Shown here in pieces: positions 43,804-45,713 of a stretch of 64,000 bases of DNA. The translations under genes were made by a program, and so were the position numbers. The DNA lies in contig NZ_LT629791.1 in assembly GCF_900105925.1 (NCBI RefSeq), positions 1,302,001 through 1,366,000 of the forward strand. Direction: 5' to 3'. The stretch's first letter is position 1. The number at the start of each line of letters is the position of its first letter. The DNA is from Jiangella alkaliphila (GTDB taxonomy: Bacteria > Actinomycetota > Actinomycetes > Jiangellales > Jiangellaceae). The notes under the pieces are model-generated. The model was not told where the DNA came from, did not search any database, and saw only the letters and a list, made by a program, of their open reading frames with translations.

Positions 43804-43853
43804 CACGGACGGCGTCCTGCGTTCGGGGGGCGAGACGCCGGACGCCGTCCGTG
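43804..43853. terminator. bidirectional terminator hairpin between hisC and peptide gene 1
   Basis: A perfect 14-bp stem (CACGGACGGCGTCC with GGACGCCGTCCGTG) encloses a 22-base loop. It lies 42 bases after the hisC stop and 16 bases from the stop of the convergent peptide gene, so it can serve both. Confidence 0.7.
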
Positions 43854-43869
43854 GTCTATGACTGCCGCG

Positions 43870-43992
43870 TCAGCAGCAGAACATTCCGGGGTCCGCGGTC
43901 GGCGCGAAGGCGGCCACCGCCGGGGTACTTACCGTGAACATGAGTGCGAACGATGCGACAACCGCGATCACTACTCGCTTGGCGCGTCCCAT
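43870..43992 (-). CDS. small exported peptide ending in Phe-Cys-Cys (peptide 1)
   Basis: A 40-residue precursor too short for ordinary gene calling. It starts at ATG 43992 with AGGAG ten bases upstream and stops at 43870. A charged N-terminus (MGRAKR), a hydrophobic core (VVIAVVASFALMF) and a signal-peptidase-like site (STPAVAAFA) leave a mature peptide of about 12 residues ending PGMFCC. It is divergent from the XRE-TPR regulator gene, 67 bases between starts. Together with the matching gene at 45552 it looks like a pheromone or small cysteine peptide under that regulator. No modification enzyme is nearby. Confidence 0.6.
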   Translation of the reverse strand: MGRAKRVVIAVVASFALMFTVSTPAVAAFAPTADPGMFCC

Positions 43993-44018
43993 CTAGATCG
44001 AACTCCTAAAGTCGGCAT

Positions 44019-44066
44019 TTGGGCTGGCAAAATGTGACTGACTGTAGTCCAATACTGTCATGACAG
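44019..44066 (+). promoter_or_regulatory. putative promoter and operator of the XRE-TPR gene
   Basis: TTGGGC (44019-44024), 18 bases, then TGTAGT (44043-44048) would place transcription start just before ATG 44060; no ribosome-binding site is visible, so the mRNA is probably leaderless. CTGTCATGACAG (44055-44066) is a perfect 12-bp palindrome centred on the start codon and could be an autoregulatory site. Functional assignment is inference. Confidence 0.4.
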
Positions 44067-45469
44067 AAGACCAGCCAGCAACAGTGGACGAGGCGCCGCT
44101 TCCGACGCCCGTCGGGCAGCGTATCCGATCCCGCCGGTTGGAGCTCGGCCTCTCCCAGGCCGAGATCGCAGAGGGCATGCTGTCCCCTAGTTACGTCTCG
44201 CTCGTCGAGAGCGGCCGCCGCCAGCCGGCCTCGTCCGCGCTCTCGCACATCGCCGAGCGGCTGCGCATCGACGTCGAGTACCTGCGCGACGGTGTCGACG
44301 CGTCCGTCCGCACCAAGGCTCGCCTCGCCCTGGGCCGCGCCGAGATGGCGCTGCGCGAAGGCCGGGCCGACGAGGCGTACGAGCAGTTCACCGAGCTGGT
44401 CGGCGACCCCGGTCTGAACGACGAGCAGAGCCGCGCCGCCCGCCTGGGCCGGGCGCTGGCCCGTGAGCGCACCGGTGACCTCGAGGGCGCCATCGAGGTC
44501 CTCAGCGAGCTGGCCGACGAGGCGCGGCAGACGCCCGCGGTGCAGTCCTGGCTCGACGTCGCCATCGCGCTGACCCGGTGCTACGACCGCGCCGGCGACT
44601 ACGACATGGCCATCCAGGTCGGCGAGGAGGCGCGGCGCGCCGCCCTCGACATCGGGCTGGAGAACACCGACGAGTACATCCGCCTCGGCTGCACGGTCCT
44701 CGGGGCCTACTCCGGCCGCGGCGACCTCGTGCGGTCCAACGCGCTCGCGGCCGAGCTGGTGGCCGCCGCCGACCGCATCGGCGCGCCGTACACCCGCGGC
44801 GCGGCGTACTGGAACGCCTCGCTCATCGCCGAGTCCCGCGGCGAGCTGGCGCTGGCGCTGAACCTGGTCGACCGCGCGCTGGCGATGTTCGGCGAGGGCG
44901 ACGACCTCCGCAACCTCGCCCGGCTGCGGCTGGCCCAGGCATGGCTGCTGCTGCAGGGCACCGAGCCCAAGGCGCAGGAGGCGCTGGCCATCCTCGACGG
45001 CGTCGAGGCGGCCATCCGCCAGCACGGCAGCGCCAGCGACATCGCGACCTTCAGCAGCAAGCGAGCCGAGGCCCTGCTGCGCCTCGGCCGGCTCGACGAA
45101 GCCCACGTTGCGGCCAACGCGGCGCTGCGCGAGCTGGGCGACCGGCCGTGGATGGGCGGGGCACTGGCGCGACTCACCCTCGCCCGGGTGCTCCGGGCGC
45201 AGGGCGACGTCGAGCAGAGCATCCGCGAGGCGGCGCTGGCCGCGTCGGCCCTGGAGTCCATGGGCGCGTCGCGGGTGGCGGCCCTGGCCTGGCGCGAGCT
45301 GGCCGACCTCTACCGCGACCTCGGTCGCACCGACGCCGCGCTCGACGCCTACGACAGCGCCCTGCGGTCGGTCCGCGTCGGTCCGCACATCGCCGCCAGC
45401 TTCGCCGACCAGGCCGTCGGCGGGGGGCTGGTCGGCCCGATGCGGCTCGCTCCGTCGGCCACCGCCTGA
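44060..45469 (+). CDS. XRE-family regulator with TPR sensor domain (RRNPP-like)
   Basis: A 469-residue protein. Residues ~18-75 are an XRE helix-turn-helix (VGQRIRSRRLELGLSQAEIA, then SPSYVSLVESGRRQPASSAL). The rest is about nine helical TPR-like pairs (for example RAEMALREGRADEAYEQF; LARERTGDLEGAIEVLSELA; ELADLYRDLGRTDAALDAYDSAL). This HTH-plus-TPR layout and length match Rgg/PlcR/NprR-type peptide receptors, which bind re-imported signalling peptides. Flanking -CC peptide genes on the opposite strand at both sides support that role. TPR-XRE regulators responding to other ligands also exist in actinobacteria, so the peptide link is inference. Confidence 0.8.
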   Translation: MTEDQPATVDEAPLPTPVGQRIRSRRLELGLSQAEIAEGMLSPSYVSLVESGRRQPASSALSHIAERLRIDVEYLRDGVDASVRTKARLALGRAEMALREGRADEAYEQFTELVGDPGLNDEQSRAARLGRALARERTGDLEGAIEVLSELADEARQTPAVQSWLDVAIALTRCYDRAGDYDMAIQVGEEARRAALDIGLENTDEYIRLGCTVLGAYSGRGDLVRSNALAAELVAAADRIGAPYTRGAAYWNASLIAESRGELALALNLVDRALAMFGEGDDLRNLARLRLAQAWLLLQGTEPKAQEALAILDGVEAAIRQHGSASDIATFSSKRAEALLRLGRLDEAHVAANAALRELGDRPWMGGALARLTLARVLRAQGDVEQSIREAALAASALESMGASRVAALAWRELADLYRDLGRTDAALDAYDSALRSVRVGPHIAASFADQAVGGGLVGPMRLAPSATA

Positions 45470-45494
45470 CGGAACACCAAGCACCACGCAAGAC

Positions 45495-45529
45495 CGATGC
45501 CCCGGCGCCAGGACGGCGCCGGGGCATCG
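45495..45529. terminator. strong bidirectional terminator hairpin
   Basis: A perfect 15-bp stem (CGATGCCCCGGCGCC with GGCGCCGGGGCATCG) with a 5-base loop lies between the convergent ends of the XRE-TPR gene (45469) and peptide gene 2 (45552). It should terminate both transcripts. Confidence 0.75.
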
Positions 45530-45551
45530 ACGTGTTCTCGGGTCTGGCCGA

Positions 45552-45713
45552 TCAGCAGCAGTACAGCGAGCCGCCGTCCGGCGTCTCGCTCACCCCGTCG
45601 TTCCATGGGGCCACTTCCGCCGGGGCGGCGCCGACACCGCCGACGGCGACCACGGCGGTCCCAGCTAGGCCGGCCACGGCGACCAGCGTCGCGAGGGCAA
45701 TCCTTCGGATCAC
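45552..45713 (-). CDS. small exported peptide ending in Tyr-Cys-Cys (peptide 2)
   Basis: A 53-residue precursor from GTG 45713, with GGAAGG about ten bases upstream; GTG 45722 is a less well-spaced alternative. A basic start (MIRR), hydrophobic core (ALATLVAVAGLAGTAVVAV) and an Ala-rich cleavage region (GVGAAPA) leave roughly 25 residues including VAPWNDGVSET and ending GGSLYCC. A promoter is visible: TTGACA (45800-45805 on the minus strand), 18 bases, AAGGAT (45776-45781). It converges on the XRE-TPR gene and shares the aromatic-Cys-Cys end with peptide 1, but little else. Function unknown. Confidence 0.6.
   Translation of the reverse strand: MIRRIALATLVAVAGLAGTAVVAVGGVGAAPAEVAPWNDGVSETPDGGSLYCC

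Follow-up and report, generated by a model that had tools for sequence, protein, structure and literature searches.

The stretch of DNA analysed here (the window; 64,000 nucleotides, positions 1302001-1366000 of the Jiangella contig) carries a gene for a 469-residue regulator at positions 44060-45469 on the plus strand. The product matches Pfam HTH_3 (residues 22-75) and, within residues 97-438, several TPR families; in its AlphaFold model (mean pLDDT 87.9), an HTH leads into a TPR superhelix built from nine helix pairs, in agreement with the HTH-TPR gene of this length that a sequence-only reading of the window had described. The predicted DNA-binding HTH (residues 17-77; 44108-44290, plus strand) rests on the HTH_3 match and on helices in the model. 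The TPR superhelix (residues 81-438; 44300-45373, plus strand), delimited by model helices, is predicted to form a peptide groove on its concave A helices; helices 4A, 5A and 6A, which belong to the concave groove by TPR numbering, are better conserved than 4B, 5B and 6B. Codons 251-252 (Trp-Asn; 44810-44815, plus strand) encode a conserved groove motif, Trp251 being invariant (80/80) and Asn252 present in 73 of 80. No second regulator copy was found in the Jiangella genome (7.7 Mb, single contig) at E 1e-5.

Two short genes flank the regulator gene, both on the minus strand. The gene for the precursor of peptide A (43870-43992) is divergent, starts with ATG 67 bp upstream of the regulator start and is preceded by AGGAG 10 nt ahead of that codon; the 40-residue product, MGRAKRVVIAVVASFALMFTVSTPAVAAFAPTADPGMFCC, comprises a signal peptide and the tail FAPTADPGMFCC, the predicted signal, with MFCC at its C-terminus. 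The gene for the precursor of peptide B (45552-45713) is convergent with the regulator gene and downstream of it, starts with GTG, has AAGGGG 8 nt ahead of the start and encodes 53 residues ending in GGSLYCC. The sequence-only reading had pointed to signal-peptide frames of these lengths ending in MFCC and LYCC, each with a Shine-Dalgarno sequence; both frames were located, and a purine-rich Shine-Dalgarno-like sequence precedes each start. In both precursors, a basic N-terminus precedes a hydrophobic core and an AXA-like site; the signal peptides were called by a rule on hydrophobicity and from AXA sites, without a trained predictor.

Peptide A was found in divergent orientation at all 20 Jiangellaceae loci having sequence upstream of the regulator (20/20), and its Cys-Cys codons (43873-43878, minus strand) are invariant in the Jiangellaceae alignment. 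Across eight Jiangella species, its gene showed 154, 87 and 311 differences at codon positions 1, 2 and 3, respectively, a pN/pS of 0.34 and no frame-breaking gaps; for peptide B, the corresponding values in four Jiangella species were 31, 28 and 82, with a pN/pS of about 0.36. Peptides A and B evolve as proteins (pN/pS about 0.35).

The strong hairpins said by the same reading to bound the peptide genes were borne out by folding energies and shuffle z scores, none of 200 shuffles folding as well in either case. One, after peptide A at 43804-43853 (minus strand; -39.9 kcal/mol and z -7.5 for the folded segment 43800-43860), is a probable terminator, and the other, at 45495-45529 between the convergent genes for the regulator and peptide B (-37.6 kcal/mol; z -6.2 on the plus strand, about -6 on both strands), is a probable two-way terminator. 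The interval separating peptide A from the regulator (43993-44059) would hold their divergent promoters and, judging from a block conserved across Jiangellaceae in an alignment of 15 loci, probably an operator. This block, CTGTAGTNCAATANTGTCATGAC at 44042-44064, extends into the first codons of the regulator; a search for further operators revealed no other copy, the block occurring once in the genome at <=3 mismatches.

Distribution of the peptide-regulator pair

With each species represented by a single genome, a scan yielded 79 named loci whose regulators show as little as 35% identity; they come from Jiangella, Phytoactinopolyspora, Streptomyces, Kitasatospora, Actinoallomurus, Actinomadura, Microbispora, Nonomuraea, Acrocarpospora, Cellulomonas, Actinotalea, Actinoplanes and others. 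Under a strict rule (an upstream, divergent ORF with CC terminal or one residue before the end), a candidate peptide gene was present at 47/79 loci, and only two such ORFs occurred in 461 kb of other sequence from the same loci. Under a relaxed rule, with CC within the last 19 residues, that is, up to 17 residues before the end, a signal-like CC ORF lay beside the regulator at 66 of the 77 evaluable loci across Actinomycetes, compared with 2.1 expected from the far-region rate of the same loci and 0.4 in base shuffles. Three of the eight ORFs counted in the far regions lie past an S9 peptidase gene (L070-L072), one past a transposase gene (L073) and one beside a second, like regulator (L059). 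At four further loci of the 77, the CC peptide gene is one gene further off, an S9 peptidase gene intervening in three and a transposase gene in one; two Streptosporangium loci have a homologous signal-peptide ORF without CC, and a candidate peptide was absent from five.

An enlarged set added 201 genomes from one GTDB family, 128 of which have the regulator; among 212 unique regulators with flanks, a CC peptide accompanied 152, in 134 cases upstream and divergent. The nearby -CC signal-peptide ORFs for which the sequence-only reading would have orthologous regulators inspected are thus present in most families sampled. Its aromatic residue before CC is not a general rule, Gly, Leu, Met, Glu, Ala and others being seen there. 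The two-peptide layout that it had singled out is real at this locus and is no hallmark of the system: peptide B was found in four Jiangella species only and at this locus only, so that it was rejected as a general second ligand. Searching 396 genomes phylum-wide with the family profile (E 1e-90) recovered only the window's own genome, which is no evidence of absence because only four candidates were scored per genome.

The genes around the pair vary from clade to clade, which leaves the peptide-regulator pair itself as the conserved unit. Several neighbourhoods are recorded here in their own right. In the Actinoallomurus/Actinomadura group, a thioredoxin gene follows the CC peptide gene on the same strand (L063 3104-3460, L064, L065, L085 and L107 3200-3559). 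Genes for CopC and CopD/CtaG follow the regulator on its strand in L102 (5358-5948), L080 (6427-8424) and related Streptosporangiales loci, which may be synteny only. The S9 (prolyl oligopeptidase family) gene between regulator and peptide lies on the minus strand (L070 5362-7173, L071 4835-6643, L072 2899-4698), and its product is a candidate enzyme for processing or degrading the peptide. The unit is tandemly duplicated in L059 (1054-5473), where two regulators stand side by side and a separate CC peptide goes with each. On two large linear Streptomyces plasmids (L263, NZ_CP033582.1; L264, NZ_CP109191.1), the CC peptide lies downstream of the regulator, followed in L263 by a second short exported ORF without CC; NCBI had already annotated the plasmid CC ORFs, independently of this finding, as hypothetical proteins (WP_123083198.1, ending in DIPLCC, and WP_331750220.1, ending in DLPLCC). 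In addition, a contig labelled as bacteriophage from human faeces (MT836207.1, 275-1069) encodes a protein 35% identical to regulator residues 18-282, and a probably mis-binned contig titled Spirochaetaceae (L057) carries a regulator of this actinobacterial family.

Association of peptide ends with residues of the predicted receptor

In an unbiased scan, the receptor column most associated with Gly before CC was residue 215 (codon at 44702-44704, plus strand; Gly in the window), which lies at TPR position 9 of helix 4A, on the concave side. A bulky residue 215 accompanied 19/22 GCC peptides versus 6/124 others (Fisher 7e-16, top of 275 columns), and in phylogenetically independent pairs, the link ran in the same direction six times and in the opposite direction never. 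The size of the residue before CC is inversely related to that of residue 215: phylogenetic contrasts of side-chain volume gave r = -0.50, a magnitude that no other of the 2142 column pairs reached (six peptide positions by 357 columns), the next columns for this peptide residue being 292 and 218. Residue 215 is hence predicted to contact the peptide residue before CC, having come first in both the association and the size-complementarity scans.

Residue 252 tracks the peptide C-terminus in another way. His precedes CC in 12/12 peptides whose receptor has Glu252 versus 0/134 others, with two independent origins. One lies in Acrocarpospora, where L116 combines the receptor motif WE with HCC and its nearest relatives combine WN with MCC, YCC or FCC, that is, N252E in the receptor goes with His in place of Met, Tyr or Phe in the peptide. 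In the Streptosporangium group, residue 252 is changed in 18/19 regulators and CC is mostly replaced by ends such as GWNHPD and GWGWPG. The pair in the window fits the pattern, with Gly215 and a bulky Phe or Tyr before CC, and Asn252 and no His. As far as sequence variation can tell, the peptide C-terminus and the receptor groove co-evolve like lock and key, residues 215 and 252 being predicted to face the groove by TPR numbering, not by model coordinates. Peptide B also has an aromatic-CC end, as Gly215 of the regulator would require, and the residue before CC is identical in A and B in three of the four species (FF, FF and YY; F and Y in the window). Peptide B is most readily understood as a second ligand of local, later origin that has the same end, an inference for which two propeptides per receptor, known at some Rap loci (71 cases), offer a parallel (PMC9765709).

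Other tests were less decisive. In a scan for co-change, the branch-length-aware null over-predicts co-change and runs conservative, for which reason no individual pair reached significance. Taken together, however, the concave columns did exceed the rest at peptide positions -1 to -3 (p 0.0014), and no such excess was found for positions -5 to -8. In a shifted-mask test on pairwise distances, the concave mask came first among 34 masks at positions -1 to -3, and at positions -5 to -8 it came second; since it was best only among close pairs, this test is not counted as proof. A clade of N252E regulators, moreover, has lost the peptide, and this loss, like the five loci of 77 without a candidate, counts against the explanation favoured here.

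The variants at related loci are as follows. CC is lost and mostly replaced by Trp-Pro ends (GWNHPD, GWGWPG, WSYPD) in a Streptosporangium-type group (L101, L109, L162-L164, L168, L175, L180, L181, L194, L196, L215, L222-L226, L229 and L230), and one of its precursors (L180) contains two tail copies. No peptide was detectable beside the Glu252 regulators of L083, L187, L197-L199, L201, L204, L205, L207, L208, L216, L218, L221, L231, L235, L238 and L240-L243, which may be orphan or eavesdropping receptors. The place that the peptide keeps in the relatives L212 and L232 is taken in L216 by a PucR-type gene abutting the regulator, and in L216 (2685-3788) and relatives, a product with a long Cys-rich tail (CDCCDCCNCC type) is encoded downstream of the peptide-less regulators. 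Cys174 was considered as a mixed-disulfide partner and rejected, Cys being present in only 56/80 regulators and not tied to CC.

Proposed mechanism, alternatives and relation to known systems

The sequence-only reading had inferred an RRNPP-like peptide-response unit in an actinobacterium, and the nearby -CC ORFs of orthologues and the co-evolution of the peptide C-terminus with the groove support it. Considering the genes, their conservation, their coding evolution and the co-evolution with predicted groove residues, all of which are observed, we regard it as probable that the locus is a self-contained unit of peptide signal and receptor working like the RRNPP systems of Firmicutes, and propose the following scenario. 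The 40-residue precursor of peptide A would be a Sec substrate, and cleavage by signal peptidase would leave a tail of about 12 residues that ends in Cys-Cys. This tail, or its last few residues, would re-enter the cytoplasm through an oligopeptide permease; 29 SBP_bac_5 proteins are encoded in the Jiangella genome, which makes an import route plausible and no more. The C-terminus may then dock in the concave TPR groove near helices 4A and 5A, a step supported by the co-evolution of residues 215 and 252 and without binding data. Docking would alter the action of the HTH on the shared divergent promoter, so that the unit would regulate its own peptide and possibly other genes, and peptide B would have joined later, in a few Jiangella species, as a second ligand. 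The steps of export, cleavage, re-import and binding are inferred only, as are the direction of regulation, a role between cells and a response to density. A bolder reading, to which we give little credence, is an actinobacterial class of redox-gated peptide pheromone with an intracellular receptor, possibly of an origin separate from RRNPPA, in which the vicinal Cys would be oxidized and inactive outside and would be reduced by thioredoxin or mycothiol after import, binding only then.

Among the alternatives to such an RRNPP-like unit, the one that survives best, unlikely as it seems, is a secretion sensor: the regulator would bind unexported precursor in the cytosol and report Sec capacity or growth, and the peptide would never act from outside. 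Co-evolution indicates contact with the C-terminus and not a return from outside, and since it is silent on the side from which the peptide comes, this possibility remains; nor does the pair have a conserved neighbour dedicated to export or import. What such a sensor does not lead one to expect is that the tails diversify within a genus like pheromone specificities, that an S9 peptidase gene lies beside the peptide in three Streptosporangiaceae loci and that the L180 propeptide repeats its tail (LGWTYPE...SAWTYAE), as in multi-pheromone propeptides (PMC9765709).

The divergent promoter layout, a small secreted Cys-containing product and an HTH domain resembling those of phage repressors would also suit a peptide that is itself the effector, a small antimicrobial or toxin, with the regulator as an autogenous repressor sensing something else. 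We consider this improbable: it predicts neither the link of the residue before CC to two positions of the groove nor the joint switch of CC and residue 252 in Streptosporangium, and no modification, immunity or dedicated export gene recurs across clades near the peptide, as might mark an effector, RiPP or bacteriocin cluster. Very little weight is given to redox or metal sensing, in which the vicinal Cys pair would bind copper or another metal or sense oxidation and the regulator would respond. CopC and CopD/CtaG genes in many Streptosporangiales loci and the thioredoxin gene in five Actinoallomurus/Actinomadura loci speak for it, but both kinds of neighbour are confined to particular clades and missing from Jiangella, specificity sits in the residue before CC, and a redox or metal role of CC is weakened by the Streptosporangium-group tails, which lack Cys while the layout is kept. 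Chance short ORFs beside a common regulator, frequent as short ORFs are in GC-rich genomes, are already refuted by the association (66/77 loci vs 2.1 expected) and the coding substitution pattern, and two such ORFs on Streptomyces plasmids had been annotated independently as protein genes.

Peptide pheromones with cytoplasmic receptors are described as a trait of Firmicutes, and Actinobacteria as using small molecules, e.g. gamma-butyrolactones, in two openly available sources (PMC10075063, PMC4748050), the former an RRNPP catalogue paper. A peptide-receptor layout of this kind does not feature in the accessible part of the review of actinobacterial quorum sensing (PMC4748050). The sequence-only reading knew of no description of such a layout, and none of such a pair, or of RRNPP in Actinobacteria, was found in the open literature, most subscription journals and preprints being outside the scope. 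If the proposed RRNPP-like reading is true, peptides would serve cell-to-cell signalling in a phylum described as using small molecules. The pair occurs in Jiangella, Streptosporangiales, Streptomyces, Cellulomonas, Actinoplanes and others, among which are many producers of antibiotics, and to these it would add a second signalling language, testable with cheap synthetic peptides; residues 215 and 252 would be natural specificity switches ready-made for swap experiments.

The fold alone does not make the regulator an RRNPP protein, because generic TPR superhelices score higher: MalT and human TPR domains reach Z 30-32, whereas the alignments of NprR, Rap-Phr and AimR over the TPR domain stay at Z 21-25. 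No RRNPP-specific model is among the Pfam or NCBIfam matches listed for the regulator. The best NCBIfam match is the NsdA family (NF053720), likewise actinobacterial TPR regulators, from Streptomyces; membership was rejected at 25.4 bits versus a cut-off of 75. Three criteria of RRNPP(A) systems are nevertheless satisfied by the pair, namely a receptor with an HTH and a TPR superhelix, an adjacent short gene for a Sec-type propeptide (66/77 loci, as called by the hydrophobicity rule) and a C-terminal signal co-varying with the TPR groove (215 and 252 being placed there by TPR numbering). The pair may thus be taken to work like an RRNPP system, common descent with RRNPPA being undecided.

ComR of the ComR-ComS system shares the XRE HTH and TPR, and in some XIPs the last two residues are alike (Trp-Trp). 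The actinobacterial peptide differs in its Cys-Cys and in its predicted Sec signal peptide. The propeptides of Rgg/ComR are shorter, and PptAB exports them (PMC9765709). In Rap-Phr and AimR-AimP, exported propeptides supply the short C-terminal peptides that bind in the TPR groove, as proposed here, but the peptide ends are unlike the Cys-Cys tails. Rap lacks a DNA-binding domain. NprR-NprX combines an HTH and a long TPR domain with an adjacent exported propeptide, and NprR aligns with residues 78-439 of the regulator (Z 24.6), although there is no significant sequence match past the HTH/TPR, and the pheromone motif and the phylum are other. PlcR-PapR of the Bacillus cereus group is the closest natural match to the full architecture, by fold and by profile: PlcR with PapR and DNA was the top Foldseek match of the regulator model, and the family profile matches PlcR (E 1.5e-14) over the HTH and first TPRs, as it also matches designed and eukaryotic TPR proteins. 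The two systems share, as far as is predicted for the Jiangella pair, an HTH-TPR receptor, an adjacent small Sec-exported propeptide and a signal at its C-terminus, and the Jiangella pair differs in being actinobacterial and not of Firmicutes, in having more TPR repeats and in a tail that usually carries Cys-Cys.
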